Assembly (NCBI GenBank): GCA_028708425.1
Contig: JAQVYY010000001.1
Span: 149,634 to 213,633 of the forward strand
Direction of reading: 5' to 3'
Source of the DNA: Bacteroidales bacterium
GTDB taxonomy: Bacteria; Bacteroidota; Bacteroidia; Bacteroidales; Tenuifilaceae
DNA length: 64,000 nucleotides
Numbering within the stretch: the stretch's first letter is position 1; the number at the start of each line of letters is the position of its first letter. The position numbers and the translations under genes are program-made. This document shows positions 17,985 through 51,298 of the stretch, in pieces. The notes under the pieces were generated by a model. It was not told the origin of the DNA and did not search any database. It saw only the letters and a program-made list of their open reading frames with translations.

Positions 17985-18135
17985 TTAACCCCAATTATTC
18001 GTTCGAATAATTGCTGTATCCAAAAGCAAATAGGCCTCATAACCAATTTTGTTTCCCGAAATCGGGTTCAACTAGGTCGGGATAGCCCGCATTCGCATTC
18101 ATCTTTATATCAAATTGATGAATAATGCGGGTTAA
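17985..18135 (-). repeat. Dispersed A/B hairpin repeat, copy 1 (full, B then A on +)
   Basis: It starts TTAACCCCAATTATTCG (hairpin B) and ends GATGAATAATGCGGGTTAA (hairpin A), with the linker between. It lies upstream of the chemoreceptor gene. Confidence 0.85.
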
Positions 18136-18387
18136 ATTCTTAACGGCATTGGGTTGTGATGATTAATTTGTTGCCAACATTGCTTGCATTCGCCCTATTA
18201 AATTTTTTCACGAAGAATATTTACAGTGAACTACCAAGTAAGAAGCACAAAAAATGTGGTCGCAAATCTGTTAGCTACCCCAACTTAAAGGCATATTTTG
18301 CCATGTTAATTTGCATAACGATAGTTAAATACCTAAATTTAAAACACCATTATGGGAGTTTTTAATCCAAACTAAAACTTTTCGGAC

Positions 18388-20259
18388 ATGAATCTATTAA
18401 ACCTTAAAATCAAAACCAAACTAGCGCTGTTATTCACCTCTTTGTCGATTATTACTCTACTGGCAGCCGGTGCTACACTTCTGAGCTTTAATCAGATTAA
18501 CAACCTAAGAGCCAATGTCCTAGATCTTCATTTGGCTGATAAGGCAAAAATTTCTGTTGATAATAATTTATTGCTCTACACTCTAAACCCCGATGCCAAT
18601 ACCCTTGTTCAGCTCGATAAGAGCGTAAAAACGATTGAAACGATTCTGGCCAATTGTAAGGAAAATTCCATCGAAAAAAAGAATGTGGAGATAATTGACC
18701 AGATGCTTTTAGAAACAGAAGAGTATAAGAAAAGTTTAGAGTTGCTGAGTGCAATTTTTTTGCGTAAAGACCAAATTTTATCCCAAACCAAACACATCAC
18801 AAGCCGCATTAATTCAGAATACCCCGAATTTACGCACCAGGCATACGAAATGCAGCTTTTGGGTCAACGGTTTCTTATGTCAACAAAAACTGTAGATTTT
18901 AATGCATGGCATGATAGGTCGAATATCATTGCAAGCAGTATTGACGATGAAAATTTAAGCGGTATGGTTGGTAATTATATTTCGCTTGGTAACGATTATT
19001 GGAATGCAATGCAAGAGGGCAGTAAGATTTATGGTAGTATCCAAAAGGTGGCAGAGGATTTAAAGCAGAATCTCGATACCATAATTTCAGATACCACCCT
19101 AATGTTTAATGAGCAACGTAGCAAAAATATCCTGTATATTGTTGTAGCCCTAGTTGTTTTGATAGGCGCTTCGGTCACGGCATCTTTTATTTTCAGCAGA
19201 AAATTAATTGGCAACCTACAAAGAGGTTTGCAATTTAGCGAAACGATTTCATCGGGTGATCTTACCGTTGGCTTTGATAACGATTTACTCGTTAAAGCCG
19301 ATGAAATAGGTGATTTGGCTCGAAGTCTTAATAGTATGGGCGATGTGCTAAAGGGTATTACCCAAAATATTATTCAGGGTTCGCAGGGTATTGCTGATGC
19401 GAGCATACTATTTACCACAAGCAGCCAGCAGATATCCGAGAGTGCTAGTAATCAGGCATCATCAACCGAAGAAATTTCGTCGAGTATGGAGGAGATGGCG
19501 GCCAATATCGATCAAACATCTGAGAATGCTAAGCTTGCCGAAAAGGTTGCAGTCGAAACCGAAACGGGTGTTGTGCAGGGGGTCGAAGCTGCCAATAGCG
19601 CGCTAGAGCAGGTGAATAACATCACCGAAAAAATTGTTATTATTCGCGACATTGCATTCCAAACCAATATACTGGCTCTAAATGCAGCTGTTGAGGCAGC
19701 ACGTGCTGGCGAGCATGGTAAAGGGTTTGCTGTAGTGGCTGCCGAGGTTCGAAAACTTGCCGAACGCTCAGCCTCATCGGCGCAGGATATTGAGACCATG
19801 GCCAATACACTCCGTGAAGCTTCAAACGATGCCCATGGGAAGTTGACAGCGGTTATCCCTAAGGTTAAGGATAACCTAAAACTTATACAGGAAATCTCTT
19901 TGGCTAGCATTGAGCAAACCTCAGGAGCCGATCAGGTAAATAGCGCTACTCAGAGCCTAAATAAAATCGTTCAGGATAATGCATCCATGAGTCAGGAACT
20001 GGCAGCTAGTGCTCAGGAGGTTAAGACCAATTCCGACAGGTTGGTTGAAACCATATCGTTTTTTAAAGTTTCAGAAAATGATAGCAATGTTAGTAAGCCC
20101 TCCTTAAGTAGCGTTCAGCCTGAGGCGAAGGTAAGTAAGCCAGCTGTTAAGGCGCAAAAACATCAGCCCATGCATAAAGATAGCAAAGGTTTTAAGTATG
20201 TACTTCACGATGAAGGTAAAACAAAGGGAGGGGTTGATTCTGACTACACGACCTTTTAG
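18388..20259 (+). CDS. Methyl-accepting chemotaxis protein
   Basis: This 623-residue transmembrane chemoreceptor has TM1 at about 10-32, an all-helical ligand-binding domain at about 35-245 (4HB-like), TM2 at about 248-270 and HAMP to about 325. A methyl-accepting signalling domain follows with the hallmark hairpin tip ([20 protein letters not shown], then [19 protein letters not shown]). It would relay an extracytoplasmic signal to CheA/CheW, which are not in this window. No CheR-binding NWETF pentapeptide is visible at the C-terminus. The TAG stop codon lies within the first bases of a dispersed repeat copy. Confidence 0.93.
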
Positions 20260-20390
20260 CCCGCATTATTCATCAATCTTGTTAACGGTGAATGTAAATG
20301 CGGGTTACCCCGACTTTGGGTAACAAAATTGGTTGTGAAACTTAGTCGTTGTCGGAGACAGCAATTATTCGAATGAATAATTGGGGTTAG
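20257..20390 (+). repeat. Dispersed A/B hairpin repeat, copy 2 (full, A then B)
   Basis: It begins TAGCCCGCATTATTCATC and ends GAATAATTGGGGTTAG. Its first three bases are the chemoreceptor's TAG stop codon. Confidence 0.88.
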
Positions 20391-20464
20391 GTCGTGGCAG
20401 GGTGCGATACTTTACTTGTTGTTATCTTGTTGATAATGGCTGAATAATTCTTAAATTTTTTATT

Positions 20465-21241
20465 ATGCTAATAGATTACCACACACATACATTCCTTTCC
20501 GATGGGCGCGATACCCATGAGCAAATTTTGCAGTCGGCCATATTCAGAGGATTTAGTGAGATTGGTTTTTCGGATCATGTTAGCGTTAAACCCATTGATT
20601 GGGCTTTACCCGTTGATCGTATTGATGATATGGTGAGTAGGGTTAGGGCGCTAAAGGATGCCGACACCAAGGGCGTATCGGTAAAGCTGGGTGTTGAAAT
20701 GGACTATTTTCCTGATATGGAAAAATCCATTCAGCAGGTTTTGCAGAGCATGCCCCTAGATTATGCCATTGGTTCGGTGCATTTTATTGATGATTGGAAC
20801 TTCGACTCCGATATAGCACCCTACGATGCTATGGATATTGATAGGTTCTACCAGCAGTACTTTAGACTTGTTCAGCAGTCGGCAAAATCAAAACTCTTCG
20901 ATATTATTGGGCATTGCGACCTGGCCAAAAAGTTTGCGTACTATCCATCCTTTAATCTTGATGAACTATACGACCAAACAGCAAAAGTATTTAAGGAGTC
21001 CGATGTTGTTATTGAGGTTAATACCAGCGGGAAAATAAAACCCTGTGAGGAGTTTTACCCTTCGGCGCAGTTTCTCGAAAGGCTGGCACATTACAAGGTT
21101 CCCGTTACGCTGGGTTCCGATGCGCATGTTGAGCAAAATGTGGGGCAATTTTTCGATGTCGCCATCTCGGCACTAAAAGCACTTGGCTATAAAGAGATAG
21201 CTAGCTTTTCGCAACGTAAAAGGAAAATGGTTAGTATATAA
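20465..21241 (+). CDS. PHP-domain phosphatase (HisJ-type histinol-phosphatase family)
   Basis: This 258-residue protein matches the PHP superfamily along its length. Metal-binding motifs are in order: HTH near the N-terminus (DYHTHT), FSDHV, GVEMDYFP, GSVHFID, IGHCDLAKKF and LGSDAH. Family members hydrolyse histidinol phosphate (histidine biosynthesis) or related phosphoesters using a trinuclear metal centre. No other his genes are in the window, so the exact substrate is uncertain. Confidence 0.85.
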   Translation: MLIDYHTHTFLSDGRDTHEQILQSAIFRGFSEIGFSDHVSVKPIDWALPVDRIDDMVSRVRALKDADTKGVSVKLGVEMDYFPDMEKSIQQVLQSMPLDYAIGSVHFIDDWNFDSDIAPYDAMDIDRFYQQYFRLVQQSAKSKLFDIIGHCDLAKKFAYYPSFNLDELYDQTAKVFKESDVVIEVNTSGKIKPCEEFYPSAQFLERLAHYKVPVTLGSDAHVEQNVGQFFDVAISALKALGYKEIASFSQRKRKMVSI

Positions 21242-21307
21242 ATACCGTCCATCTTCTAATTTACTGACCTTTAGCCATTGGTATTAGCCTACGCAACCCC
21301 TGATTTC

Positions 21308-21342
21308 TAACCCGCATTAGTCATCTGAATAATTGGGGTTAA
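21308..21342 (+). repeat. Dispersed A/B hairpin repeat, copy 3 (35-bp minimal derivative)
   Basis: The outer end of A (TAACCCGCATTAGTCATC) is fused directly to the outer end of B (TGAATAATTGGGGTTAA). Everything between is missing, as expected for an internal-deletion derivative. Confidence 0.8.
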
Positions 21343-21361
21343 TATCAATAAATATAGACGC

Positions 21362-22456
21362 TTAGCTTTTCAACTTCTCTTCAAATGCCTTTACTGATTC
21401 ATGTAAACCAGATTTTAACTCGCTAAAAACTTCCTTAACAGTCGATATTTTTTCCGATAGGTACGCATTTGCACCCGCAAAGGCATAGCCACCCTTCATA
21501 TTGCCCTTGTAGGCGTTAAAAAGAGCGGTAATAATGCAGTACGGACTTTTGGTTACATCGCAGGTTTTAATACAGTGGAAGGGGCACTTAAGAGGCTTTT
21601 TGAGTCCATTGCGAACCTTGTCAAGGAAGTCATTACGAACAGCTCGACCTGGCATGCCTACCGGGCTCTGAATAATTTCAATATCGCCCTGCTTAGCGTT
21701 AATATACGATTCTTTAAATTTAAGCGATGCATCGCATTCTTGCGTGGTAACAAAGCGCGTACCCATTTGCACGCCGCTTGCACCGTATTGCATAATCTTA
21801 AAGATATCATCGCCTGTATAAATTCCACCAGCGGCAATTACCGAGATATGCTGATTATACTTCTCCTCATATACTGCCACTTCACGAACTACATCGGTTA
21901 CCAGCTCCTCTAGTGCAAAGTGTGTATCTTCTAGCTGGTTATTCTTAAAGCCTAAATGTCCGCCCGCTTTTGGCCCTTCAACAACTATGGCGTCGGGTAG
22001 ATAGTTATAAAGCGATTTCCATTTTTCGCATATTATCTTGGCTGCTCTACCCGACGAAACTATGGGAACCAGCTTGGTAACGCTATCGGCTTTAAGAAAC
22101 TTAGGTAGGTCGAGGGGTAGGCCTGCTCCCGAAAATATTACATCGGCTTTTTCTGATATGGCAGTTTTAACCAGCTCGGCAAAGTTCGACATGGCCACCA
22201 TTATGTTAACGCCTATCATTCCCTTTGTTCGTTCCTTGGCCGAACGAATTTCCATTTTAAGCCCCTCAATATTGGCCTGTATAAAGTCGAGTGCGGGATT
22301 TCGGTGAACTAAGCCAAGCCCTGCTGCCGAGATTACGCCAACGCCACCTTCGTTTGCTACGGCAACGGCTAATCCTGATAATGATATGCCAACACCCATC
22401 CCGCCTTGTACTATTGGCACTGGAATAGCAATGCCGCCAATTTTTAACTCTCTCAT
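21362..22456 (-). CDS. NAD(P)H-dependent flavin oxidoreductase / nitronate monooxygenase family
   Basis: This 364-residue TIM-barrel flavoprotein carries the family glycine motif GGMGVGIS near the N-terminus, then VISAAGLG, a phosphate-binding loop region with EGPKAGGHLGF, and AAGGIYTGDDI followed by GASGVQMGTRF. The family includes 2-nitropropane dioxygenase and FabK-type enoyl-ACP reductases; the motifs cannot separate these. Unusually, near residue 292 there is a cysteine cluster C-x3-C-x3-C-x7-C (CPFHCIKTCDVTKSPYC), which might bind a metal or an iron-sulfur cluster. It is transcribed alone. Confidence 0.85.
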   Translation of the reverse strand: MRELKIGGIAIPVPIVQGGMGVGISLSGLAVAVANEGGVGVISAAGLGLVHRNPALDFIQANIEGLKMEIRSAKERTKGMIGVNIMVAMSNFAELVKTAISEKADVIFSGAGLPLDLPKFLKADSVTKLVPIVSSGRAAKIICEKWKSLYNYLPDAIVVEGPKAGGHLGFKNNQLEDTHFALEELVTDVVREVAVYEEKYNQHISVIAAGGIYTGDDIFKIMQYGASGVQMGTRFVTTQECDASLKFKESYINAKQGDIEIIQSPVGMPGRAVRNDFLDKVRNGLKKPLKCPFHCIKTCDVTKSPYCIITALFNAYKGNMKGGYAFAGANAYLSEKISTVKEVFSELKSGLHESVKAFEEKLKS

Positions 22457-22548
22457 CTGTGTGAATTTAATTTCAGTAAAGGTATGTCAATATCTGTTCG
22501 AATGGTTGCTATTTGGAACAAAAGTGCTCTATGTTATGAATTTTTAGC

Positions 22549-22580
22549 TTTGGGAGTCTTAATGATTTTTATTATGTTTG
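22549..22580 (+). promoter_or_regulatory. Bacteroidota-type promoter for the zinc-ribbon gene
   Basis: TTTG at 22549-22552 and TATGTTTG at 22573-22580 are 20 bp apart, an exact match to the TTTG/TAnnTTTG consensus. Transcription would start near 22587, giving a leader of about 25 nt. Confidence 0.6.
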
Positions 22581-22611
22581 TAGTAACCCCTAAAAACCAA
22601 CTAAATACCTG

Positions 22612-22992: not shown

Positions 22993-23097
22993 TCGATTGG
23001 TTGATGAGCAGATGCGCTAATGGGATGATGGAATGATGAGCAAATTTGTAAATTATCACTCATCTTTAATTCCTTATGCTTATTATGATTCTTTCAT

Positions 23098-23141
23098 CCG
23101 CATTGTTCATCAAATTTTTAATGATGAATAATTTGGGGTTA
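23098..23141 (+). repeat. Dispersed A/B hairpin repeat, copy 4 (short derivative)
   Basis: It runs from CCGCATTGTTCATCAAA through GATGAATAATTTGGGGTTA, which joins hairpin A arms to the outer end of B without the linker. Confidence 0.7.
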
Positions 23142-24798: not shown

Positions 24799-24808
24799 CT
24801 GTGGTATT

Positions 24809-26852: not shown

Positions 26853-26957
26853 ACCTGAGCAAATACTCTGCCTTACTGATATACACCGTGGGTGTTTGGG
26901 TTGGATGTGGACTTTGTGGTTCTCATCCGCGCTTTTTCTCCCGAAAGCGTATCTGAA

Positions 26958-27172
26958 TTGAGGCAGTGAATGGCAGGTCTTCTGACTTGCTTCCCTTTTG
27001 AGCGCCTTCCCATTTCGTTTTTTTTTACCCGAAACAGTGGCTGGGGTGCTCATTAGGTTAATGAAGCTTACAGCAGCGGGAACTGTTGCCGAATTTCTTC
27101 TTATTTATAAGAAGAGCACGGCATTCCCTTTTAATCCAGTGGGTTCGAAAATCCACAGCGGAACCATTACGT
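26958..27172 (-). ncRNA. Cobalamin (adenosylcobalamin-type) riboswitch
   Basis: Read on the minus strand, the conserved blocks occur in order: GGTTCC at the 5' end, AAAAGGGAATGCCGTG, CGGCAACAGTTCCCGCTGCTG (a short variant of the canonical CGCCCGCAACTGT region), GCCACTG, GGGAAGG, and the B12 box AGTCAGAAGACCTGCC. This is the standard cobalamin riboswitch layout. It lies in the btuB-btuG leader, about 175 nt before the btuB start. Confidence 0.92.
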
Positions 27173-27257
27173 TGCAAAGATATTAAAAATTAGGGTGTAA
27201 AGATTAATAATCTGAGTAATTTGTGTTTTGTTTATCTTTCCTTTGAACTTGCTTTGT

Positions 27258-27672: not shown

Positions 27673-28125
27673 ATGTCAAGCTATCGGCAGATATTATACC
27701 ATATTGTTTTTCGAACAAAAAACAGCAGAAAAACGATAGACCAAAGGAACGCCCATGAGCTATATGCTTATATTATGGGATACATTAAAAATAAACAAGG
27801 TTTTTTATATCGCATTAACGGCATGGAAGATCATATCCATATTTTATGTGATTTGCACCCATCGCTAGCTTTAGCTGATTTTATGCGCGATATGAAGTCT
27901 ACCTCTTCCATATGGATTAAAGAAACTAATAAATTTATTGGTTTTAATGGATGGGCTGATGGTTATGCTGCATTTACCTGTTCGTGGAAAGATAAAGATA
28001 AAGATATGATTGTTAATTATATAAAGAATCAACAAGAACATCATAAAAAGAATTCTTTCGAAGAAGAACTGAAACATTTATTAGCGGATTTCGGTATTCA
28101 GTATGATGAAAAGTATTTTCCATAA
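27673..28125 (+). CDS. REP-associated / IS200-type tyrosine (Y1-HUH) transposase
   Basis: This 150-residue protein of the TnpA_REP/IS200 family has an N-terminal strand YRQILYHIVFRTKN, the HUH metal motif HIHIL in NGMEDHIHILCDL, and a C-terminal catalytic-tyrosine helix MIVNYIKNQQEHHKK. Such enzymes nick single-stranded DNA at hairpin-flanked sites. The gene is enclosed by long imperfect inverted repeats with hairpins on both sides, forming a compact unit of about 600 bp. The gene appears intact. Without a linked tnpB or true IS200 ends, RAYT is the better label. Confidence 0.87.
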   Translation: MSSYRQILYHIVFRTKNSRKTIDQRNAHELYAYIMGYIKNKQGFLYRINGMEDHIHILCDLHPSLALADFMRDMKSTSSIWIKETNKFIGFNGWADGYAAFTCSWKDKDKDMIVNYIKNQQEHHKKNSFEEELKHLLADFGIQYDEKYFP

Positions 28126-29202: not shown

Positions 29203-29255
29203 TTAACCCACATTCATATTCATCATTACTAAATTTGATGAATAATGCAGGTTAA
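29203..29255 (-). repeat. Dispersed A/B hairpin repeat, copy 5 (hairpin A only)
   Basis: It runs TTAACCCACATTCATATTC to GATGAATAATGCAGGTTAA. Hairpin A is present and there is no B part. Confidence 0.75.
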
Positions 29256-29975: not shown

Positions 29976-30078
29976 GGGTTACCTCAACATAGTCGAGCCC
30001 AATTTTGGGTAACAAAATTGGTTGCGAAACTTAGTCGATGTCGGAGACAGCAATTATTTGAATAAATAATTAGGATTA
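29976..30078 (+). repeat. Dispersed A/B hairpin repeat, copy 6 (linker plus B, lacks A)
   Basis: It contains the linker AACAAAATTGGTTGCGAAAC, CGGAGACAGCAATTATTTG and a degraded B hairpin ending TTAGGATTAG. Hairpin A is missing. Confidence 0.75.
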
Positions 30079-30886: not shown

Positions 30887-30917
30887 CCCCAATTATTCAT
30901 TCGAATAATTGGGGCTA
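30884..30917. repeat. Dispersed A/B hairpin repeat, copy 7 (hairpin B only, perfect palindrome)
   Basis: The arms TAGCCCCAATTATTC and GAATAATTGGGGCTA flank the loop ATTC, a 15-bp perfect stem. The first three bases are the stop codon of the membrane-protein gene. Confidence 0.9.
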
Positions 30918-32141: not shown

Positions 32142-32515
32142 AATTTTTTGTTTTAGATTAATGATTTAAGCAGTCTTACCACTTTTTTAATTTACACCTA
32201 ATTTATTACTGTTAATGTTAGCAAATTTATTTGAAATATACAACATTGGTTGCACATTTTTTAACCCGCATCATTCATCAATTTTGGGTAACAAAATTGG
32301 TTGTGAAACTTAGCCGCTGCGGGAGACAGCAATTATTCTAATAAATAATTTGGGTTTAATGTACCCTTGCGTTGCTATTCGTGTAATTGTTGGAAATGTT
32401 GAAAACGGCAACCCTCAATTTCGGCAATTATGATTAAATGGATGTGATTCTTGTTGACCATCCTCAAATCATAACATCAACTTTCCTCTTGCACCCTACT
32501 GTTGCTTTTGCTCCG
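32142..32515. other. Intergenic region carrying repeat copy 8
   Basis: The 374 bp between two minus-strand genes include copy 8 of the dispersed repeat (32261-32358). The rest has no clear motif. Confidence 0.5.
32261..32358 (+). repeat. Dispersed A/B hairpin repeat, copy 8 (left A end, linker, B)
   Basis: It starts TTAACCCGCATCATTCATC, jumps directly into the linker TTTTGGGTAACAAAATTGG, then CGGGAGACAGCAATTATTC and a degraded B end GGGTTTA. The right half of hairpin A is deleted. Confidence 0.8.
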
Positions 32516-35278
32516 TTAGCCCTTAACCCCAATGGCAATTATCTTTTCAACCTTGCCCTCTTTGTTAATCACGGGCGAGTAGGTTTCGTTTAGCGTAAGC
32601 CTTGATCCGCCAAGCGAGCCTTTGAAAACACGCTGGCGTATTATGCCGCGGCTTAGGTCATCCCAAAATTCATTGTACGAGGCGTCGTTATCGGCTTTGG
32701 TTTTGAAGAATTCCGAGTGGTGTTTTCCAACCATAGTGTCGACTGTTTGCCCCATGATGGTTAGCAGCGCTTGGTTAACGTGCAGAATAGTGCCATCGGT
32801 GTGGTATTCAACCATGAATGTGGTTGAATCGAGCGCCTTAATAATGGCCCGATACTCATACTCATGGGTGCCAACTATCTCCTTAGGCTGTTTCTTCCGA
32901 GTACCAGTATCCTTGGTTTTAGGCTGATCCTCTTGGGGTTGGGCAATGATTTTGCTAATACCCCATGTACCAACAACTTCGCCTGTTGTATCGATAAGCG
33001 GCATTTTGGTGGTCGATACCCATTGCGTTTTGCCATCATCAAATTTTTCGTGAACCAGATTGTCTACAATGGGAGTTTTACTCCGCATAATTTCCTGCTC
33101 TTCAGCAAAAAATGTTTCAGCATTTTCTTTTGTGTGAAAATCGAAGTCGGATTTTCCAATTAGCTCTTCGGGCGAGTTGGCACTGAATAGTTTAACCATC
33201 GATTTGCTAATACGGATAAATTGGCTTCTTTCATCCTTAAAGTATATATAGTCTGGAATATTTTCCATTAGGGCATTTAGCAGGGTTACCTCTTTCTTAA
33301 ACTCTTCCTGAATTTGTTCCCGTTCAATATTTTTACGCTCCATCTCTTCTTGTGTGGCCTGGAGTTCCTCCATATTTTGGCGCATCTCCTCCTCCTGAGC
33401 CTGCATCTCTTCGGCTTGTTGTTGCGATTTTGCCAGAAGCTCAGCGGTTTGAATATTAATTTTTACGCTCGATATGGTTGATGCAATACTCTCGGTTAGC
33501 TTCTCAATAAATTCAATTTGATACTTTTCTAAAACCTTAAAGCTTGCAATTTCGATAACGCCCAGCTTTTCGTCGTTATTCTTAAGCGGTACAAGGATAA
33601 GGCAGCGGGGTTTTTCCTGCCCCAGTCCGCTCGAAATGTTGATATAGTTCTCCGGGATATCGGTTAGAAAAATGGTTTTGCCCTCGCGGAAGCATCGGCC
33701 AACTAGCCCCTCGCCAATTTCAATTTGTTTTTCCAAATATTTTCTCCTATCGTAGGCAAAGCAGGCGGTCATTTCTAGAAATGGTTTATCCTGGTCGTTA
33801 TCGTTTAATATAAACACTCCTCCTTGGTTCGAGTCGGTATATTCAACCAGGTTGTGTATAATATTATATGACAGCTCATTGATGTTGTCGTTATTTTGCC
33901 GAAGAATTTCGCCAAATTTTGCCATTCCCTGTGTTGCCCAGCTATGTTTTGCTTCCTCAACCTTGCGCTCTTCTTCGGTACTTTGTGCCTGCTTAAGGCT
34001 TTCTTGCATATCAATTAGCGAGATGCCCAGTAAGTCCTTGTTACTAAGGGTTTCAAATTTTGCATCGAGATTGCCTTTACCAATTTCGCGGGCAAAGTTT
34101 TCGGTAAGGTTTAGCCCGTCAATTAGCTTATTTACTGAGTTGGCCATCATTTCCAACTCATCGCCGGTGGTGATGTCTAGCTTTTTCCTTTGGTCAATAT
34201 CTCCTTGGGCTAAACCATTTAGAATTTGTGTAGTAGCTACGATGGGTTTCGTAATAATTTGTGCAACGTAAAAAAGGACTAAAATCAGAATGATAAGCCC
34301 AATAATGGCTATTAATGCGCCATATAATGTCGATTTTTGTGCATCTATCAGTATTTCGTTCAGCGGAACTAGTATGCCAATTGCCCATGGCGAATTAATA
34401 TTGCCAACATAGATAGGTGCAAAGGTTAAAAGGTATTCGCCTTGTGCAAATTTCCAGAAAAAGTTTTGTGGTTTTCCTTTTTGTACCTTGCTAACAACAT
34501 TTTGCTGCATGGCAATTTCAGGGTAGGTTTCCTGAAAGCTTTTTCCTAGATTGAGCTCGTTGGTATGGGCAACAAATACGCTGTTGTTCGAAAGTAAAAA
34601 GGATTGAGAATTGGGATAGGGTTTTATTTGGGTTACCAGCTCCTGCATTTCTTCGAGCGTAATATCAACTCCTGCAATTCCCGCAAATTTACCGTTTTTT
34701 CTTATGGGCGAGCTTAAACTGGTTAGAAGAATTTCGTTTATCCCATCGAATCTGTCTAAGTAGGGGTCAGAGAGCAATTCAATATTATTTGTCTTGGCCT
34801 TATAGTAATCACTACCAACTATATCACCGGTCATATTTCGTTCCTGAACAAGGACTTGAGCGTGCCCATTCTGTAGAAAGGTTGCCACTGTTCTTCTACC
34901 GTAGTTCTTGTTATAATCTGGATCGGTGGCGGCGTACTCCAAGCTATACCAAACAGATACATACTGAGGGTTATGCTCAATTTGGTGTTTAATCATCTCA
35001 AAATAGGTGCTGTCGCGCTGTGTCTCGGTAAGCTTGTGAAAGCCATTAAGTGAGTTCGCCAAAGATCGAGAGAAGCCCAAGTCGAACTCCAGCTTTGATT
35101 TTACCACTCCAGCAGCCTTCTCGGCCGTGCTTATGGCGTAGGCCTGAGCGTCTTTTAATGCCATTCTATGTGTACGGTAAAGAACTAAAAAACCAATAAG
35201 GCTAATTACAATTACTGATGTAACCAGTATATACACCAGTAATTTTGCTTTAATACTCATTTTTTTTTGGAAAGCCAT
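32516..35278 (-). CDS. Cache-HAMP-GAF-PAS-PAS membrane sensor lacking an output domain
   Basis: This 920-residue protein has TM1 at about 12-34, an extracytoplasmic dCache domain (about 45-310), TM2 at about 317-340, HAMP and a linker to about 440. A GAF domain follows (about 469-600), a glutamate-rich coiled coil (AEEMQAQEEEMRQNMEELQ region) and two PAS domains (about 666-782 and 802-918). It ends directly after the second PAS with IIAIGVKG; no kinase, cyclase or methyl-acceptor domain follows. It is divergently transcribed from a TPR-SpoIIE phosphatase gene 311 bp away, a plausible partner. It might instead work with an unlinked kinase. Confidence 0.85.
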   Translation of the reverse strand: MAFQKKMSIKAKLLVYILVTSVIVISLIGFLVLYRTHRMALKDAQAYAISTAEKAAGVVKSKLEFDLGFSRSLANSLNGFHKLTETQRDSTYFEMIKHQIEHNPQYVSVWYSLEYAATDPDYNKNYGRRTVATFLQNGHAQVLVQERNMTGDIVGSDYYKAKTNNIELLSDPYLDRFDGINEILLTSLSSPIRKNGKFAGIAGVDITLEEMQELVTQIKPYPNSQSFLLSNNSVFVAHTNELNLGKSFQETYPEIAMQQNVVSKVQKGKPQNFFWKFAQGEYLLTFAPIYVGNINSPWAIGILVPLNEILIDAQKSTLYGALIAIIGLIILILVLFYVAQIITKPIVATTQILNGLAQGDIDQRKKLDITTGDELEMMANSVNKLIDGLNLTENFAREIGKGNLDAKFETLSNKDLLGISLIDMQESLKQAQSTEEERKVEEAKHSWATQGMAKFGEILRQNNDNINELSYNIIHNLVEYTDSNQGGVFILNDNDQDKPFLEMTACFAYDRRKYLEKQIEIGEGLVGRCFREGKTIFLTDIPENYINISSGLGQEKPRCLILVPLKNNDEKLGVIEIASFKVLEKYQIEFIEKLTESIASTISSVKINIQTAELLAKSQQQAEEMQAQEEEMRQNMEELQATQEEMERKNIEREQIQEEFKKEVTLLNALMENIPDYIYFKDERSQFIRISKSMVKLFSANSPEELIGKSDFDFHTKENAETFFAEEQEIMRSKTPIVDNLVHEKFDDGKTQWVSTTKMPLIDTTGEVVGTWGISKIIAQPQEDQPKTKDTGTRKKQPKEIVGTHEYEYRAIIKALDSTTFMVEYHTDGTILHVNQALLTIMGQTVDTMVGKHHSEFFKTKADNDASYNEFWDDLSRGIIRQRVFKGSLGGSRLTLNETYSPVINKEGKVEKIIAIGVKG

Positions 35279-35589
35279 ACTGTACCCTATTTAGTGTAAA
35301 TTCAACAACTTTTTTTAATAGCAAGGTAAGATATAAAAATCACGATACTATTCACCGTTAAAAGTACAAAATGTTTTTTTAGAAATTACTTTAACTTACC
35401 CTTTTGGGATATATTATTTAGGATAACCCCAATTATTCGTTCGAATAGTTGCTGTCTCCAACAGAGACTAACCCACATTCGCATTCATCTTTTAACAAAG
35501 TTGATGAATAATGCGGGTTAAATGAGGCTTTGGTAAGCAAAAAAGGCTAAATTAGCAACCAAAACCTTAGCTATTCAATTTTATTTTTT
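35279..35589. other. Divergent intergenic region carrying repeat copy 9
   Basis: This divergent promoter region lies between the sensor and phosphatase genes. It holds copy 9 of the dispersed repeat at 35424-35522 and AT-rich flanks. Confidence 0.5.
35424..35522 (-). repeat. Dispersed A/B hairpin repeat, copy 9 (B then A on +)
   Basis: It begins TAACCCCAATTATTCGTTCG and ends GATGAATAATGCGGGTTAA, with a shortened linker containing GCTGTCTCCAACAGAGACT. Confidence 0.85.
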
Positions 35590-37917
35590 ATGATTAACTA
35601 CGTCAGGTTGTTGTTTGTAAGCGTGTTATTGTTGCTATACGGGGTTAATGGCCACGCACAGCAACCCCAAACCCGTTTATACGAAAAAGCTGATAGCTTA
35701 ATTTCTACATCGTACGCGCTAACGCAAGGCATGCCCGATTCGTCGATAGCGGCTGTTAATGAGGCCATAGCTATTGCAAATGAAATAGCCAGTACGGAAC
35801 TTTTACAAAGGGCTTACTACCAGCTAGGGTATGTGTACTACTACCAAAATAATTTCGGCGAGGCCGATAAGCATTACAGCCTATCGTTGCAACTTGCTAA
35901 GCAGAATAATAGTGCTCAGGGTCAGGCACTTGCTCTTAACCGATTGGGTAATGTTAGCCAGCTAAAGACCAACTACCTTAAGGCACTCGACTATTACCTT
36001 GAGGCGCTGGATCTTAACACCGAGGCAGATTGTAAACCAGAAGTGGCGCGAACCCTGGTAAATCTTGCCAATGTGTATAGCGTTGTTGGACAGTATCAAC
36101 GGTCAATAGAGCATTTTTTACAGGCCATGGAAATCCACGAGGAGGTTGGCGAGAGGGAGGGCATTGCTTGGGCATCGCTCGGAATTGCTCGGCTTTTCAA
36201 ACAGCTCGACTTGCTCGACAGGGCGATGGAGTACGCCCAGAATTCGCTTAAATACTACCGTCAAATTGAACAGGAAAGTGGTAATGGCATTGGTGTAACC
36301 CTTTGCTTAAACGAAATTGGTAGTATTTACCATAAGCTTGGTAATTACCATAAGGCTTTGGAATACGCTCAGATGGTTTTGGAAATTAACCAAAAAACGG
36401 ACAATTTACATGGGCAGGCTGCAAATAATATTAGTCTTGCTATAATTTTCCTCGATCAGGGTAAGGATATACTTGCGCGCAAAAGGCTAAACGAAGCGCT
36501 GGAACTTAAGAATAGGGTTGGAGATAGTCTCGATTTGGCATCGCTACATAGGCATTTGGGCGAAATTGAGATGCGTAGCGGAAATCTTTTGCTGGCACAG
36601 CGTTACTTTTTGCAAAGTTTAAATTTTGCCAAAAATCATCGGTTAATTCCCGATATTAGTGAAGCCTATTTTAGCCTATCGAAAGTTTATGCTCAGCAGG
36701 GAAACCATAGTAAGGCTCTCGATGCTTATAAAGGCTATACAACTTTTAAGGATAGTTTGAATTCCAGCGATATATCGAGGCTCGAAATGCAGTATGAGTT
36801 CGAAAAGCGAGAAAAAGAGCAGGAACTGATTACCAAGCAGCGCGAAGCCCTTCAGCAAGCCAAAATCCAAAGGCAACGGGTGGTGCTTATCTTTTTTATT
36901 TTAGCCTTTTTGTTAACGGGTATTTTGTTGGCTTTTATTTTTTCGCTGTACCGCGAAAAGAATAGGGTAAATCGGTTACTGGTTGAGCAAAATATTGAAA
37001 TTAGCAATCAGAAAGAAGAGATTGAAACTCAGAAAGAGGAGATTGAGCAGCAGCGCGATTTTGTTACCCAGCAGCGCGACCAGATAGCCGACCAGCAACG
37101 TTTGATTACCGATAGCATAACCTATGCCAGCCGTATCCAGAATGCTGTTTTGCCGAGTAAAGAAACCTTGGCTAACCTGCCATGGGAAACTTTTGTTTTG
37201 TATAAACCCAAAAACATAGTTAGCGGCGATTTTTACTGGACAACCAACCTGGGTAACGGTAAAACGTTAATTGCCGCCGCCGATTGCACTGGGCACGGTG
37301 TTCCGGGTGCCTTTATGAGTATGCTAGGCATTACGTTGCTTAGGGATATATCTAGCCGTGAGGAGAGTGTTACCCCTGCCGATATGCTGTTACAAATGCG
37401 AGACATGGTTATCCTTTCGCTCAATCAGCAGGCCGATAAAATTGACTATGCCGATGGAATGGATATGGCTTTAGCTATTATTGATGAGAATACGCTCGAT
37501 ATGGAGTTTGCAGGGGCTTACCAGTCGGTAATTATTGTGCGCAAAAATGGGTTTTTCGATAGTGCTGAGAGTCAGGATGTAATTTCTATGCACGGCGAAA
37601 ACGAAACGCTACTACAGATTAAGGGCGATAAAATGCCCGTTGGGCATCATCTGCTTGTTGCTAATTCTTTCACCAACAGGCAATTTCAACTGCAGAAAGG
37701 CGATATGCTCTATTTCTATTCCGATGGCTATGCCGATCAGTTTGGCGGGCCCAAAACCCAAAAGTTCCTAATGCAACGGTTCCGTAAGCTGCTTATGGAT
37801 ATACATAATCTGCCCTGCAACGAGCAGAAAGAGATTCTGGATACAACCATTGAAGATTATAAAGGGAGTCAAAAACAGCTTGACGATATGCTAGTGCTTG
37901 GTCTTAGAATTAGCTAA
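35590..37917 (+). CDS. TPR-repeat membrane protein with SpoIIE-type PP2C phosphatase domain
   Basis: This 775-residue protein has a signal peptide (VSVLLLLYGVNGHAQ) and extracytoplasmic TPR repeats at about 40-400 (for example AYYQLGYVYYYQNNFGEADK). A transmembrane helix lies at about 427-452, then a glutamine/glutamate-rich coiled coil and a PP2C/SpoIIE domain from about 539. The catalytic core shows SGDFYW, the metal-binding AADCTGHGVPGAFMSM, and later YSDGYADQFGG. Such proteins dephosphorylate partner-switching anti-sigma antagonists in response to sensed stress. The divergently encoded Cache/PAS sensor, which has no output domain, is a candidate partner. Confidence 0.88.
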   Translation: MINYVRLLFVSVLLLLYGVNGHAQQPQTRLYEKADSLISTSYALTQGMPDSSIAAVNEAIAIANEIASTELLQRAYYQLGYVYYYQNNFGEADKHYSLSLQLAKQNNSAQGQALALNRLGNVSQLKTNYLKALDYYLEALDLNTEADCKPEVARTLVNLANVYSVVGQYQRSIEHFLQAMEIHEEVGEREGIAWASLGIARLFKQLDLLDRAMEYAQNSLKYYRQIEQESGNGIGVTLCLNEIGSIYHKLGNYHKALEYAQMVLEINQKTDNLHGQAANNISLAIIFLDQGKDILARKRLNEALELKNRVGDSLDLASLHRHLGEIEMRSGNLLLAQRYFLQSLNFAKNHRLIPDISEAYFSLSKVYAQQGNHSKALDAYKGYTTFKDSLNSSDISRLEMQYEFEKREKEQELITKQREALQQAKIQRQRVVLIFFILAFLLTGILLAFIFSLYREKNRVNRLLVEQNIEISNQKEEIETQKEEIEQQRDFVTQQRDQIADQQRLITDSITYASRIQNAVLPSKETLANLPWETFVLYKPKNIVSGDFYWTTNLGNGKTLIAAADCTGHGVPGAFMSMLGITLLRDISSREESVTPADMLLQMRDMVILSLNQQADKIDYADGMDMALAIIDENTLDMEFAGAYQSVIIVRKNGFFDSAESQDVISMHGENETLLQIKGDKMPVGHHLLVANSFTNRQFQLQKGDMLYFYSDGYADQFGGPKTQKFLMQRFRKLLMDIHNLPCNEQKEILDTTIEDYKGSQKQLDDMLVLGLRIS

Positions 37918-40052: not shown

Positions 40053-40203
40053 TTACCCCGCATTATTCATCAAATTTGTTAACGATGAATGTAAATGCGG
40101 GTTACCCCGATGTGGTTGAGCCCAATTTTGGGTAAATAAGATTGATTGTGAGCCATAGTTGCGGCCAGAGACAGCAACTATTGGGATAAATACTTTGGGT
40201 TAA
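40053..40203 (+). repeat. Dispersed A/B hairpin repeat, copy 10 (full, A then B)
   Basis: Hairpin A is intact (CCCCGCATTATTCATC...GATGAATGTAAATGCGGG). The linker contains GAGCCCAATTTTGGGTAAAT, and B is degraded (CAACTATTGGGATAAATAC). It lies 16 bp after the GNAT stop codon. Confidence 0.85.
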
Positions 40204-42685: not shown

Positions 42686-43156
42686 GGTTACGCAGTTAAA
42701 AGTTTGTAAGGTAAAAAGTATGTGTGCCCCATCGGGTAATGTAAAATCTGCAGCCCCTAGCTCGTAACATGTTCACCCTAACCCGCATTATTCATCAAAT
42801 TTAGTAAAGATGAATGCAAATGCGGGTTACCCCAACCTAGTGGAATCCGATTTTTGGAAACAAAATTGGCTGTGAGGCGTAGTCGCCGTTAGAAACCCCA
42901 ATTATTCATCCGAATAATTGGGGCTAAGTTATGCTCAGGTCATTAATTTGTTTGGGTTCTACATTTATGTGCCTTGTTGTAAAGTTGCAGCATGTTTTTA
43001 ATTACTTGAAACATTATGAATATTGCAAGTGTTAAATGTAAAACCAATTTATCTGGTAATCACACAATTTCTCAAATCTTTGGATTTGGTGAAATCAAAA
43101 GATCGTTTATAAACCTATTCGCAAAGACTAGTTAAAAAATTGAACCGGTTAGTCTA
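42686..43156. other. 471-bp gap between convergent genes carrying repeat copy 11
   Basis: This gap between convergent genes carries dispersed repeat copy 11 (42779-42926). The remainder is AT-rich and shows no recognisable motif. Confidence 0.5.
42779..42926 (+). repeat. Dispersed A/B hairpin repeat, copy 11 (full, A then B)
   Basis: It is one of the most complete copies. A has outer arms ACCCGCATT/AATGCGGGT and inner arms TTCATC/GATGAA. The linker contains GAAACAAAATTGGCTGTGAG. B is a near-perfect palindrome, CCCCAATTATTC/GAATAATTGGGG. Confidence 0.9.
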
Positions 43157-46658: not shown

Positions 46659-46685
46659 TGGTGTAAACCTTATAATGTATAAGTT

Positions 46686-47225: not shown

Positions 47226-47251
47226 CTTAGGGTTGAATGGTAAAAATCAAA

Positions 47252-48148
47252 TTAGGTTTTCTGTTCGTCAATTGCTCCTCCCGCAAACTGCTTAATATAA
47301 ACATCGCGCTGCGGAAAGGGTAATTCTATACCCTTCTTTTTAAACTCTTTAAAAATTTCGAAATAAAGCTGACTTTTGAGTAAATGCGGTTTTCGAGTAT
47401 AATCAGTTGTAAATACCCTAAGGGTAAATTTTAAGCTGCTATCTGCATACTCATCAAAAAGCACATCGGCACCGGGCAGCTTAAGTACCCCGGGGTGCTT
47501 ATTTGCCACGTCAAGCAGAATCTCTCTAACTATCTCTGGATCCTCGTTGTACGAAACTCCTACCGGAATTTTAAACCGCACATTTGCATCGTTGTAGCTC
47601 CAGTTAATAACGGTATCGGAAACAAACTTTGAATTTGGGATAAGAATAGCAATATTATCGTTGGTAATAATGGTTGTGCTACGTGCCGATATATTTACCA
47701 CATCGCCCGCCAGGTTATCGAGCTCCGGAAGCTCAACCCTATCGCCCACCTTTATTGGGCGTTCAAAAAGAATAATTATCCCGCTAATAAAGTTATTCGT
47801 AACGCTTTGTAGGCCAAACCCAATACCTACTCCGAGTGCCCCTACCAAAACTGTTAATGTGCTCAGGTCAACCCCAGTAGATTGGACAATAATAACGAGC
47901 CCCACAAATAGAAACACGTACCTAAAAATAGACCCCACTGCATGCGAAACGCCCCTATCTGTGCCACGGCGATTGAGCAATCTTTCAATTACCCGTCGGC
48001 TAATTAGTTTTGCTAAAAAAAAGATAAGCCACGTTCCAAGAATAAGATATATGATCATGCCCAGTGAAAGGTTCGAGCTGGTTTGCGAAAAGATAGGTTT
48101 GCTCAGTAACTCGGTAACAGCTTTCCAGAAGTCTGCAAAGGTTTCCAT
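47252..48148 (-). CDS. Small-conductance mechanosensitive channel (MscS family)
   Basis: This 298-residue protein has three N-terminal transmembrane helices, of which the third carries the glycine/alanine-rich pore helix (TLTVLVGALGVGIGFGLQSVTNNFISG). The MscS beta domain follows with RPIKVGDRVE, VNISARSTTI and NIAILIPNSKFVSDTVINWS, then a C-terminal alpha/beta domain. It opens under membrane tension to release osmolytes. It is convergent with cvpA. Confidence 0.93.
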   Translation of the reverse strand: METFADFWKAVTELLSKPIFSQTSSNLSLGMIIYLILGTWLIFFLAKLISRRVIERLLNRRGTDRGVSHAVGSIFRYVFLFVGLVIIVQSTGVDLSTLTVLVGALGVGIGFGLQSVTNNFISGIIILFERPIKVGDRVELPELDNLAGDVVNISARSTTIITNDNIAILIPNSKFVSDTVINWSYNDANVRFKIPVGVSYNEDPEIVREILLDVANKHPGVLKLPGADVLFDEYADSSLKFTLRVFTTDYTRKPHLLKSQLYFEIFKEFKKKGIELPFPQRDVYIKQFAGGAIDEQKT

Positions 48149-48716
48149 GGTTATAATTTTACCCCTAAATTAATAAAAAAGATATTATGAACGATAACAT
48201 CGAGAGGGGTTTTTTGGGTTTTATTTAGAATTTTGAATGTTGCAAGAGTCTTAACCCGCATTATTCATCAAATTTGTTAAATAGGGTGATTTATTGTCCC
48301 GCTGTCTCTTTTCATTTCGCTTGGTTCAAAAATCAGCTGGTTTTTTGAGGACGGAATTGTAACAATAATTCTTTTTCTCAGGTTTAGGGTTTTTTTCAAT
48401 TATTACCCGGGCTTTCATGTCAATTTTATCGGAATCGGCATACCTTTACCATTCTCTCCAAGATTTACAATCCTGTTGTAGTGGCAGCCCTTTTTTATTC
48501 CCTGAAATATGCGAAGAAACACCACCTGTTATTAGCCTATAAAATCCTGTTTTCTTATCTTTGTACCCATAAAGATAGTTTGGTGTACTCAAAAATGGTG
48601 AAGCGTTATCTGTTCGTTTTGCAACCTTTTAAATTACGAGTTATCAGGGTATTAAGCAAGTTGTCTTTTATCTTTTTTGCACAAATCGCTCAATTTAGGT
48701 AATAAGGAGTTATAAT
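48149..48716. other. 568-bp intergenic region
   Basis: It contains a fragment of the dispersed repeat (48251-48280) and an AT-rich leader before a small HTH gene. A 73-codon open frame at 48481-48702 is not convincing. Otherwise nothing is recognised. Confidence 0.45.
48251..48280 (+). repeat. Dispersed A/B hairpin repeat, copy 12 (left half of A only)
   Basis: TTAACCCGCATTATTCATC followed by AAATTTGTTAA matches the left arm and loop of hairpin A in the full copies; then the match stops. Confidence 0.7.
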
Positions 48717-48896
48717 ATGGAATTAAAAGGCAAGGTGTTAGAAACCATTAAAAAGGCTGGTAAGCCAATGAAAGCTGGCGAGATTGCAGAGCAGGCAGGT
48801 ATTGATAAGAAAGATGTGGATAAGAGCATCAAATCTTTAGTAGCCGAGGGTGTGTTGGAGTCGCCAAAGCGTTGTTTTTACAACCTAAAAGGATAG
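48717..48896 (+). CDS. Small winged-helix DNA-binding protein (59 aa)
   Basis: A 59-residue open frame begins MELKGKVLETIKKAGKPM, continues AGEIAEQAGIDKKDVDKSIK and LVAEGVLESPKR, and ends CFYNLKG. The pattern helix, helix-turn-helix, beta wing is that of a minimal wHTH domain. An AAGGAG Shine-Dalgarno site lies about 8 bp upstream, unusually strong for this window, which supports translation. The regulatory target is unknown. Confidence 0.8.
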   Translation: MELKGKVLETIKKAGKPMKAGEIAEQAGIDKKDVDKSIKSLVAEGVLESPKRCFYNLKG

Positions 48897-48991
48897 CATA
48901 CCGCTTTTTGCGGTTGAAACCGAAAGGGGCACTGAAAAATATTTTACCCCAGAGGGAAAGAATACTTTTTTGTCCCCATGTTTTGTGTAGC

Positions 48992-50044
48992 CTATCTGTT
49001 TTCGTATTGCTGCTTATAGTAGTTGGCGTATTCGCCCGAAATAACTTCGGATACCCATTGCGAGTTGGCTAGATACCAGCTAACCGTTTTCTCAAGTCCC
49101 TCTTCGAACGAAACCTGTGGGCTCCAGCCCAGTCCGTTAGTAATCTTGCTCGAGTCAATGGCGTACCTTAGGTCGTGTCCGGCTCGGTCGGTTACAAAGG
49201 TTATAAGTTTTTCCGATTCGCCAACGTTACGGCCTAGTTTTTCGTCCATAATGCGGCATAGGAGCTTCACCAGGTCAATATTTTTCCACTCGTTATTGCC
49301 CCCAATATTGTAGGTTTCACCAAGTTTTCCCTTATGAAAAATGGTGTCGATTGCCGCCGCGTGGTCCTCAACATACAGCCAGTCGCGTACGTTTAGCCCT
49401 TTGCCGTAAACTGGGAGGGCTTTATTCTGTTTTATATTACTGATAATTAACGGAATAAGCTTCTCGGGGAATTGGTGTGAACCGTAATTATTTGAGCAGT
49501 TCGAAATAACAACGGGTAAATTATAGGTATGATGATATGCCCGCACCAAAAAATCGGCACTTGCTTTTGATGCCGAGTAGGGGCTACGTGGGTCGTAGGG
49601 TGTGCTTTCGGTAAACAGGCCCTCATCGCCCAAGCTGCCATAAACCTCATCGGTTGATATGTGATAAAATAGCTTATTCTCAAAATTATTTCCCCATTGT
49701 TTGCGGGCGGCATTCAAAAGAACAACGGTTCCCTCTATATTGGTTTTAATAAAGCTCATGGGGTCGGTAATAGACCTATCGACATGCGACTCGGCAGCCA
49801 GATGAATTACCCCATCAATTTTATGTTCTGCGAAGACTTGGTTTACCGCCTCTTCATCGCAAATATTAACCTTAACAAAGCGGTAGTTTGGTTGGCTTTC
49901 AACATCTTTTAAATTATTTAAATTGCCGGCATAGGTTAGGCAATCCATATTTATGATGTTTATTTTGGGGTATTTTGTTACAAATCGCCGAACCAGATGC
50001 GAGCCAATAAAACCCGCCCCGCCTGTTATTAGTAAATTCTTCAT
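48992..50044 (-). CDS. rfbB: dTDP-glucose 4,6-dehydratase
   Basis: This 350-residue extended SDR enzyme has the N-terminal NAD motif TGGAGFIGSHL, the catalytic region STDEVYGSL with YSASKASADFLVRAYHHTY (Tyr/Lys pair), SNNYGSHQFPEKLIP, and YGKGLNVRDWLYVEDH. These are diagnostic of RmlB/RfbB, which converts dTDP-glucose to dTDP-4-keto-6-deoxyglucose for rhamnose and related sugars. The other rml genes are not in this window. The DUF1972-type glycosyltransferase 7 kb away may use such sugars. Confidence 0.94.
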   Translation of the reverse strand: MKNLLITGGAGFIGSHLVRRFVTKYPKINIINMDCLTYAGNLNNLKDVESQPNYRFVKVNICDEEAVNQVFAEHKIDGVIHLAAESHVDRSITDPMSFIKTNIEGTVVLLNAARKQWGNNFENKLFYHISTDEVYGSLGDEGLFTESTPYDPRSPYSASKASADFLVRAYHHTYNLPVVISNCSNNYGSHQFPEKLIPLIISNIKQNKALPVYGKGLNVRDWLYVEDHAAAIDTIFHKGKLGETYNIGGNNEWKNIDLVKLLCRIMDEKLGRNVGESEKLITFVTDRAGHDLRYAIDSSKITNGLGWSPQVSFEEGLEKTVSWYLANSQWVSEVISGEYANYYKQQYENR

Positions 50045-50076
50045 ATTGTTATCCTTTCGTTAAGGGTTTGCCGTTT

Positions 50077-51012
50077 TTAGTATAGGTTTGGGTCGCTTGG
50101 TTCAGTATCAACATGCCCCGCTTTACGAACATTTTTTGCCACTTCCTGCCCACGCTCGTTGGTTTCAATGGTAAACTCAAGCATATCGCCGTTGTTTATT
50201 TCGTTAAAGTCGCCCTCAACAACATCTTGATAGTGAAAAAACAGGTTGTTGGGTGGGAACTGTATAAATCCATACCCATTATTCATGTTCATGGCGCTGC
50301 CCTCGTGTACTTCACTCTCCTCGTTGAGGCTGGTTACACGCTTGGGCTGCGAATACTCAGGTAGTTCAAAAAGATTGGTAACCAGCTGGTTGCCTGCATT
50401 CAATCCGTTGTTAATTAGCTCGTGCATGGCAATGGGGTAGGTAACCTCCTGAATTAAATCTTGCGATGTACGAGTTACCACATCGCGCCCCATGTCGTCG
50501 GTGTATTCAAAATCCCAGCTAAGCACCATAACCTTAGCGCCAAGTGAGTTCAGCTTTCTAATTAGTGGTACATAGTCGCCATCGGAGGTGATGAGCACCA
50601 CAACATTAAACCGTTTATAGAATGCTTGCTCAAAGGCCTCCAGGGCCAACCAAACATCAATCCCCTTCTCCTCTTTTTTCCCGCTACGGTTTCTAATGGG
50701 TAGGTAGTGAGTTACAACCCCTTCGGACATTAATATATCGTCGAAAACCCTATCGTTATAAAGTTGATTTCCTCGTTGGCTTGCTTCCTGAGCACTTATA
50801 CGCCCCCTAAAGTAGTGCGCCTCAATAACCTGACAAAACCTTGCGGGAACCTCCTCCTCTTTGGCTACTAAATTGCGAATAAAATCATGTAATCCTGCTA
50901 TATTCAAGCGTTTACGGCGGGCGTGAAAGTAGTTGTAATAGTTGCTAACGTGTAAAAAGTAGTTGCCATCATAAAATACTCCTATCCTTTTTAGATCTTT
51001 GGGTGTTGTCAT
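50077..51012 (-). CDS. NYN (PIN-like) domain protein fused to a C-terminal cold-shock-like domain
   Basis: ATG at 51012 (MTTPKDLKRIG) gives 311 residues. The N-terminal NYN domain is marked by GVFYDGNYFL, KGIDVWLALEAFEQAF and LITSDGDYVPLIRKLNSLGAKV, which carry the acidic residues expected to bind metal. A linker of about 60 residues leads to a cold-shock OB domain near 245-300 (NGYGFIQFPPNNLFFHYQDV and GDMLEFTIETNERG). NYN proteins are RNases or RNA-processing factors; the CSD suggests binding of single-stranded RNA. It is probably cytoplasmic. Confidence 0.82.
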   Translation of the reverse strand: MTTPKDLKRIGVFYDGNYFLHVSNYYNYFHARRKRLNIAGLHDFIRNLVAKEEEVPARFCQVIEAHYFRGRISAQEASQRGNQLYNDRVFDDILMSEGVVTHYLPIRNRSGKKEEKGIDVWLALEAFEQAFYKRFNVVVLITSDGDYVPLIRKLNSLGAKVMVLSWDFEYTDDMGRDVVTRTSQDLIQEVTYPIAMHELINNGLNAGNQLVTNLFELPEYSQPKRVTSLNEESEVHEGSAMNMNNGYGFIQFPPNNLFFHYQDVVEGDFNEINNGDMLEFTIETNERGQEVAKNVRKAGHVDTEPSDPNLY

Positions 51013-51188
51013 AAATTTTAATTTTTTTTTCAATGGTAAAGAACGAATTAATGCTATCTAATATTATATATAATTTGATACAAAGGTATGGATATTTTAG
51101 AACTTCACATAATTGTAAGGGCAAGGTTGAGCCATACCCCTGTTTTGTACACTGCATGGTCGCACATTTTGTTTGATTTTTAAATGTA

Positions 51189-51298
51189 TTAACCCCAATT
51201 ACTCATCCGTATAATTGGGGGAGACTCCGGCAACAACTGGGTCGGGGTAACCCACATTTGCATTCATCTTTAATAAATATGATGAATAATGCGGGCTA
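51189..51298 (-). repeat. Dispersed A/B hairpin repeat, copy 13 (B then A on +)
   Basis: It begins TTAACCCCAATTACTCATCC, with arm TATAATTGGGG, continues through a shortened linker, and ends GATGAATAATGCGGGCTA. Confidence 0.85.

Follow-up and report, generated by a model that had tools for sequence, protein, structure and literature searches.

Repetitive extragenic palindromic (REP) sequences, together with bacterial interspersed mosaic elements (BIMEs) and REPINs, are intergenic palindromes with hundreds of copies and paired hairpins, which are not known to create a target duplication and are associated with tyrosine transposases. Miniature inverted-repeat transposable elements (MITEs), of which Nezha is a bacterial example, are a different kind of short repeat, and the piggyBac transposons use TTAA as their target and have an end starting with CC(C). 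In the available text of PMC10813416, the IS1380 family of insertion sequences (IS) is the prokaryotic outgroup in piggyBac trees. Here, we analyze a repeat in a 64,000-nucleotide stretch of contig JAQVYY010000001.1 (C64:149634-213633, forward strand; hereafter, the window) from the 3.51-Mb draft genome (112 contigs) of a Bacteroidales bacterium of the Tenuifilaceae (assembly GCA_028708425.1). The initial annotation had described 13 copies or fragments of one two-hairpin element in this window, as either a non-autonomous mobile unit or a structured RNA family, and whole or partial copies were recovered at all 13 places. We conclude with considerable confidence that the repeat is a 142-bp MITE with inverted-repeat ends and a 4-bp target duplication, likely spread by an IS1380-family transposase acting in trans.

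Target duplication and structure of the repeat

Identical 4-mers flank 40 of the 66 full copies (70 rows, minus four that start with CCCCAA, i.e., the element in opposite-strand reading), compared to a mean of 19.2 and a maximum of 28 in 2,000 shuffles of the flank partners. For flank lengths of 1-3 and 5-8, there was no excess of identity in the same copies. The flanking 4-mer is a target duplication; TTAA is the commonest, CTAA, TTAG, TTAT, ATAA and TTAC also occur, and the set can be written as NTAN or YTAR. The sequences TTAACCC and TTAGCCC, which had been read as the two ends of the element, are present as described because the 4-bp target duplication adjoins the terminal CCC; the TTAA or TTAG, however, belongs to the duplication and not to the element.

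In aligned copies, the mobile unit comprises 142 bp from CCC to GGG and consists of hairpin A (CCCGCATTATTCATC AAATTTGTTAAA GATGAAT GCA AATGCGGG), TTAC, a core (CCCGACCTAGTTGAGCCCAATTTTGGGTAACAAAATTGGTTGTGAAACTTAGTCGCTGTCGGAGAC) and hairpin B, in this order. Hairpin A is formed as CCCGCATTATTCATC...GATGAAT(gca)AATGCGGG and hairpin B as CCCCAATTATTC...GAATAATTGGGG, the latter being the end of the element; the core holds its own hairpin, CCAATTTTG/CAAAATTGG. Both A and B have the form given in the initial annotation, except that a 3-nt bulge in hairpin A had been missed. There is no transposase gene, the 142 bp between CCC and GGG being too small for a transposase of ~447 amino acids (aa). The terminal inverted repeats, CCCGCATTATTCATC on the left and CCCCAATTATTCATY (reverse complement) on the right, are imperfect at positions 4-5; in reverse reading, the right end is CCCCAATTATTCATTC or alike, an imperfect inverted repeat of the left end. 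Each end is directly followed by its own reverse complement and thus is also a hairpin. The per-base variation is 3-5% in the terminal bases, compared to 8-15% in most of the core and the left arm of hairpin B, as expected if moving copies need intact ends.

Hairpin B exists in two states before AATTATTC, AGC in 29 and CCC in 23 of 60 readable copies. In AGC-type copies, the stem of B is 8 bp long, and the CCCC after hairpin A is able to pair with the terminal GGGG; one such copy (L019) has a cloverleaf-like fold, with CCCC/GGGG closing around the core. The loop is reversed in 7 of 23 CCC-type versus 1 of 34 AGC-type B hairpins (Fisher p 0.005, uncorrected for relatedness; six copies without a readable loop and three ties or other types were excluded), which is suggestive of loop inversion in the CCC-type hairpins.

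The placement of copies was analyzed in a 444-kb sample (the window plus 20 other stretches), which contains 59 whole or fragmentary copies, or roughly one every 7.5 kb. To obtain this set, 60 of 297 motif clusters were retained; two fragments of only 12-15 bp were then excluded, and the copy at 23097 was included in addition (as 23101-23140). Only 1 of the 59 copies lies mostly inside an open reading frame (ORF) of 100 aa or more, compared to 51.6 expected at random placement; the earlier statement that copies occur only between genes is, therefore, nearly correct. The gene contexts are convergent for 11 copies, divergent for 10 and co-directional for 35, and 3 copies are at edges. At 1-8000 and 54600-64000 of the window, big reading frames are built of many internal repeats of ~120-300 bp with 60-95% identity, and the covariance model described below has no matches in these regions.

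Relation to IS1380 transposons

A scan for TAR followed by CCCGCATTATTCATCA, covering about 85,000 species with one genome each, returned at least 60 stretches. One of these, L178, from another phylum (titled Deltaproteobacteria), contains a 1,645-bp element that starts with CCCGCATTATTCATC, has a near inverse at the other end and is flanked by TTAG/TTAA; it encodes a 447-aa protein that matches PF13701 (E 4e-155) and the NCBIfam model for IS1380 (NF033539, E 2e-122). The 15-base left end of the repeat is identical to the left end of this whole IS1380 element. An ISBdi2-type IS1380 on a Bradyrhizobium plasmid, assigned by annotation, has the ends CCCGTCTTATTCGT/CCCGTCCTATTCGT and the flanks CTAA/CTAA, and in a Cyclobacteriaceae genome, a C-terminal IS1380 remnant is followed by CCCGCATTATTCATA, i.e., the same end with one difference, and TTAA. 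Judged by sequence, the end of the repeat is an IS1380 end. In the proposed mechanism, an IS1380-type DDE transposase would bind both ends and, after excision or copying of the unit, insert it at a TTAA-like target, with duplication of the latter. Because IS1380 genes were not found in this genome or elsewhere in the genus, we infer either mobilization in trans or a loss of the source; the autonomous source was probably lost from the genome or is missing from the draft assembly.

It should be noted that several observations weigh against this interpretation. The flanking 4-mers differ in 26 of the 66 full copies. The right end of the L178 element shows two differences, its flanks agree at three of four bases, and the ends could be read confidently in only one of four plasmid IS1380 loci. 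A PF13701 match was obtained for only four of the 12 genomes or records with the same left end (in one case, a 26-bit fragment), and the end is near the gene in only 2 of 9 loci from those genomes (the whole IS in L244 and the remnant in L251). The PF13701 transposase of IS1380 was not found in the genome under study or in its four congeners (none of five draft assemblies), and a protein search of the former for an IS1380 transposase, which had no positive control, was empty as well. Within the same family, IS1380 is present in 2 of 27 genomes, with readable ends in one (L239, CCCAAATTAAGCAG), and these differ from the ends of the repeat.

A collapsed autonomous element was also sought at the starts of 40 of the 112 contigs, where shared starts were found and the repeat end was never nearer than base 165. 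The repeat had no match by blastn in plasmid and phage collections, and of the loci returned by two IMG/VR scans (three and one), three of the four were read and judged to be chance hits inside other sequence.

Abundance and history in the genus

The covariance model was built from 27 full copies, three of them from the window. With the genome-wide search that the initial annotation had proposed, further copies were found beyond the window, with at least 143 full-length copies spanning the whole model, each at E 6.5e-35 or better. Among 3,016 candidates in this genome, 150 were scored, and all 150 match at E up to 0.01. Extrapolation from the 444-kb sample would give a genome total of about 465 copies and fragments. 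The divergence of full copies from the consensus is 1-19%, with a median of 9%, and nearest neighbors are 84-98% alike; the family thus appears to have spread over some time and not in one recent burst.

In the congeners, the same model has eight matches in G001 and three in G003, and no match was found by this search in G002 and G004. The exact 17-base left end occurs 175 times in the genome under study and is absent from 392 further genomes of the order, a sample that does not include the four congeners. The suggested comparison of empty sites was made for one window site, that of the copy at 35427, which lies between the genes at 32516-35278 and 35590-37917. In three of the four congeners (G002, G003 and G004), the conserved flanks of this copy lie close together, and the copy is absent. 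The view of the repeat as a non-autonomous mobile unit, one of the two readings of the initial annotation, is supported by the 4-bp target duplications, the empty site, the patchy presence in the genus and the ends shared with IS1380.

Some copies are associated with other rearrangements. A DDE insertion sequence with a 515-aa transposase lies within the core palindrome of one repeat copy (L160:1287-2927; C64, about 51 kb), and this IS has a second copy, at 64 kb, that is next to a repeat and not in it. The copies at L080:531-675 and 2000-2145 are near-identical and belong to a local duplication, in which palindromes of the type AGGGGCGTAGCCCT are duplicated as well. At L124:2983-3150, the hairpin-A loop of one copy seems to carry a second copy, inserted at the TTAA of this loop.

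Possible composite origin

The junction between the hairpin-A unit and the core-B unit is an NTAN 4-mer, which is TTAC in 52 of 58 readable copies. The 444-kb sample contains seven lone hairpin-A copies, three of which are flanked by identical 4-mers (29207, L115:549 and L121:774), as well as a lone core-B copy (L119:9768, CTAA/CTAC), two B-only copies and A/B hybrids. The simplest reading is that two smaller CCC...GGG units make up the element, namely hairpin A (45 bp) and core plus B (about 93 bp), which would have been fused via one NTAN 4-mer when one unit inserted into the target duplication beside another. Short copies would then have been produced by internal deletions, most of which kept the outer ends. 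Alternatively, the two-unit layout could be the result of deletion from a longer ancestor. In the available text of PMC9330008, the behavior of IS1380 elements, namely misreading of ends ('TMos'), fits the composite interpretation. The least certain parts of our model are the composite origin and the assignment of the transposase that acts in this genome.

Small elements with the same end in other phyla

Among the matches listed, the 19-base left end occurs at 62 places, 18 of which have too little flank, so that 44 were tested. A partner end was found within 310 bp at 32 of the 44, and 27 of those 32 have identical 4-bp flanks, whereas the upstream control (where 310 bases were present) gave one partner and no identical flanks. 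The 27 exact cases include three congener copies (L203, L209 and L214) and one element counted on both strands (L227); with the former left out and the latter counted once, at least 23 distinct elements remain. By record title, the hosts are KSB1, Thermodesulfobacteriota, Armatimonadetes, Nitrospira, Cyclobacteriaceae, Jiulongibacter, Dysgonamonadaceae and another Bacteroidia bin; L219, whose title says Gammaproteobacteria, shares its sequence type with the Bacteroidia bin Co_bin.109 and could be the result of misbinning. In KSB1 (L185 and L201), a CCCGC..GCGGG unit is joined via ATAA to an element with CCTGAATTATTCAC ends, and in Armatimonadetes (L190), a tandem pair of units has one common CTAA. 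We tentatively suggest, as a possibility that falls somewhat short of probable, a modular class of miniature elements with IS1380-type ends across phyla, in which a duplicated NTAN would serve as a new target, so that units insert at borders and fuse into composites, and in which palindromic arms would be recopied, with AGC-type hairpins turned into perfect CCC-type hairpins and loops inverted.

Alternative explanations

A structured RNA or cis-regulatory family (a terminator, an RNA stabilizer or a riboregulator), maintained for its two hairpins, is a quite unlikely alternative. Both hairpins are stable, with z of -3.3 to -7.6 for six strands of three copies, values reached by none of 200 shuffles; furthermore, the copies are intergenic, and one of them has the cloverleaf-like fold noted above. 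Two counts also point toward an RNA. In a 27-copy alignment with the structure specified beforehand (the deletion copies, the full-length copies L013, L017 and L022, and L014 and L015 were left out), there were 11 double-sided changed cells, compared to 4.9 in shuffles (2 of 500 as high), and the core helix T keeps 39 pairs after one-sided changes, compared to 27.0 under the neutral estimate, with 18 of 26 double changes paired. This estimate is based on the substitution spectrum over all columns, stems included, and the excess in helix T may be explained by subfamilies. Conversely, approximately neutral evolution is seen in the 66 copies for the arms of hairpin A and of the core hairpin and for the inner 8 bp of B, with 59 of 167 one-sided changes staying paired, compared to 54.6 expected, and one compensatory cell among 2,102 in those arms. 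The small GCTGTC stem is below the neutral estimate (19 versus 31.3), 7 of its 15 double changes being paired; for the CCCC/GGGG closing stem, the count is near the estimate (8 versus 6.3 expected), and the overall pairing in the 27-copy alignment is 91.1%, compared to 90.9% in shuffles (64 of 500 as high). RNAalifold found only four pairs in 37 copies of mixed length, probably because truncated copies were included. The copies occur in every gene context, were not found in two of the four congeners, and have ends that are explained by target duplications. The repeat reaches the gathering score of no Rfam family; the only Rfam match in the window is a cobalamin riboswitch at 26955-27183 on the minus strand (RF00174, 94.7 bits). 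The structured RNA family proposed in the initial annotation is, thus, not borne out, helix T alone exceeding the neutral estimate, and we consider the repeat to be a mobile element and not a maintained RNA.

If the repeat is indeed mobile, its transposase could be of another kind. REP/BIME-like palindromes moved by an IS200/IS605-type tyrosine (Y1) transposase would account for the resemblance of the hairpins to REPs, and a 150-aa gene for such an enzyme is present at 27673-28125 of the window, with another between two repeat copies on contig C3 (L080). The gene in the window has its own palindromes at its borders, the Y1 genes are flanked by palindromes other than the repeat, and the ends of the repeat are not beside the window gene; moreover, IS200/IS605 elements are not known to make target duplications, whereas the repeat has a 4-bp duplication and ends that match an IS1380 element, which makes this origin highly improbable. 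The IS1380 match could also be convergent, with the MITE being moved by a different DDE family that has a YTAR-like target. A YTAR-like 4-mer is likewise duplicated by IS701 and by some IS5 elements, and the failure to find an IS1380 gene in the genus would be in line with such a mover; the identity of the 15-base left end to that of a whole IS1380, and the similar ends of the ISBdi2-type IS1380 and of the IS1380 remnant, render it unlikely. The DDE_Tnp_1 elements of the genus were considered as movers and rejected, none of them having the ends of the repeat and one being merely inserted into a copy; besides these, the transposase families searched there were IS1380 and Y1. Mobilization by an IS1380-family transposase, thus, remains our preferred explanation.

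Copies in the window

At E up to 0.1, the covariance model recovered 11 of the 13 window copies, two of them weakly; the two shortest (21311-21338 and 48255-48285) are below the cut of the model and were recovered by motif scan and direct reading. With a tolerance of two mismatches, the 15-base left end is found 13 times in the window (hits and copies do not correspond one to one), compared to a mean of 0.12 and a maximum of 1 in 50 first-order Markov sequences. Three copies are full-length: 17989-18131 on the minus strand (143 bp, flanks TTAA/TTAA; E 1e-37 and motif scan), 40057-40198 on the plus strand (left flank TTAC; E 1e-34, motif scan and direct reading) and 42782-42923 on the plus strand (142 bp, with B of the CCC type and flanks CTAA/CTAA; E 1e-39).

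Several copies have lost internal parts. The plus-strand copy at 20260-20386 has a 15-bp internal deletion (flanks TTAG/TTAG; E 3e-32), and that at 32265-32354, also on the plus strand, has the hairpin A arm fused to the core (E 9e-16 and motif scan). On the minus strand, the copy at 35427-35517, whose site is empty in the three congeners, lacks the core (E 7e-15), and 51193-51295 is a core-deletion copy (flanks TTAG/TTAA; E 3e-18 and motif scan). On the plus strand, 21311-21338 is a 28-bp hybrid, with the left arm of hairpin A fused to the right arm of hairpin B (flanks CTAA/TTAA), and 23097-23138 is an A-left/B-right deletion hybrid with a decayed left end (weak E of 0.038, and direct reading).

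The remaining copies are single units or fragments. A lone 45-bp hairpin-A unit lies at 29207-29251 on the minus strand (flanks TTAA/TTAA; E 2e-9 and motif scan), and the plus strand carries the second unit (core plus B) at 29976-30078, with only the last bases of hairpin A left (E 5e-24 and motif scan), and a lone 28-bp hairpin B at 30887-30914 (flanks GTAG/CTAA; motif scan and a weak E of 0.024). At 48255-48285, also on the plus strand, only the left end is present, and the break is near the TTAA of the hairpin-A loop, the same TTAA as in the L124 insertion.

Comparison with known systems

The IS1380 family (ISBdi2, IS1247, ISPme1 and ISEcp1) resembles the repeat in the end CCCGNNTTATTCRT and the 4-bp NTAN duplication, both on the ISBdi2-type element. 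IS1380 elements are autonomous, with a size of about 1.6 kb and a transposase of ~447 aa, whereas the repeat has no gene; at IS1247- and ISPme1-type loci, no such ends were seen, and PMC3281130, in its available text, lists a 5-bp duplication for IS1247. According to the accessible part of PMC9330008, ISEcp1 mobilizes resistance genes, apparently through misreading of ends. A swarm of minimal end-only substrates, some of them 28-45 bp with NTAN flanks, would show how little DNA an IS1380 transposase may need and how far it tolerates altered ends. In the literature, judged largely by titles and abstracts, we found no account of an IS1380-type MITE or of the end sequence, and the main text of a MITE review does not mention IS1380 or Bacteroid- names (PMC10969869).

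The repeat differs from REP, BIME and REPIN sequences in having a target duplication and DDE-type ends, and from piggyBac and its eukaryotic TTAA MITEs in its degenerate NTAN target. The repeat also illustrates how bacterial intergenic "hairpin repeats" can come from transposon ends without an RNA role, and CCCGCATTATTCATC next to NTAN could serve as a sequence tag to spot such elements in many phyla. A close parallel is with the bacterial MITEs, such as Chunjie in Geobacter and the QMITEs (PMC10969869, in its available text), which, like the repeat, are short and non-coding, have inverted-repeat ends and a target duplication, and occur in many copies with truncated derivatives; the repeat is set apart from them by its IS1380-type ends, by the hairpin formed at each end and by its two-unit layout.

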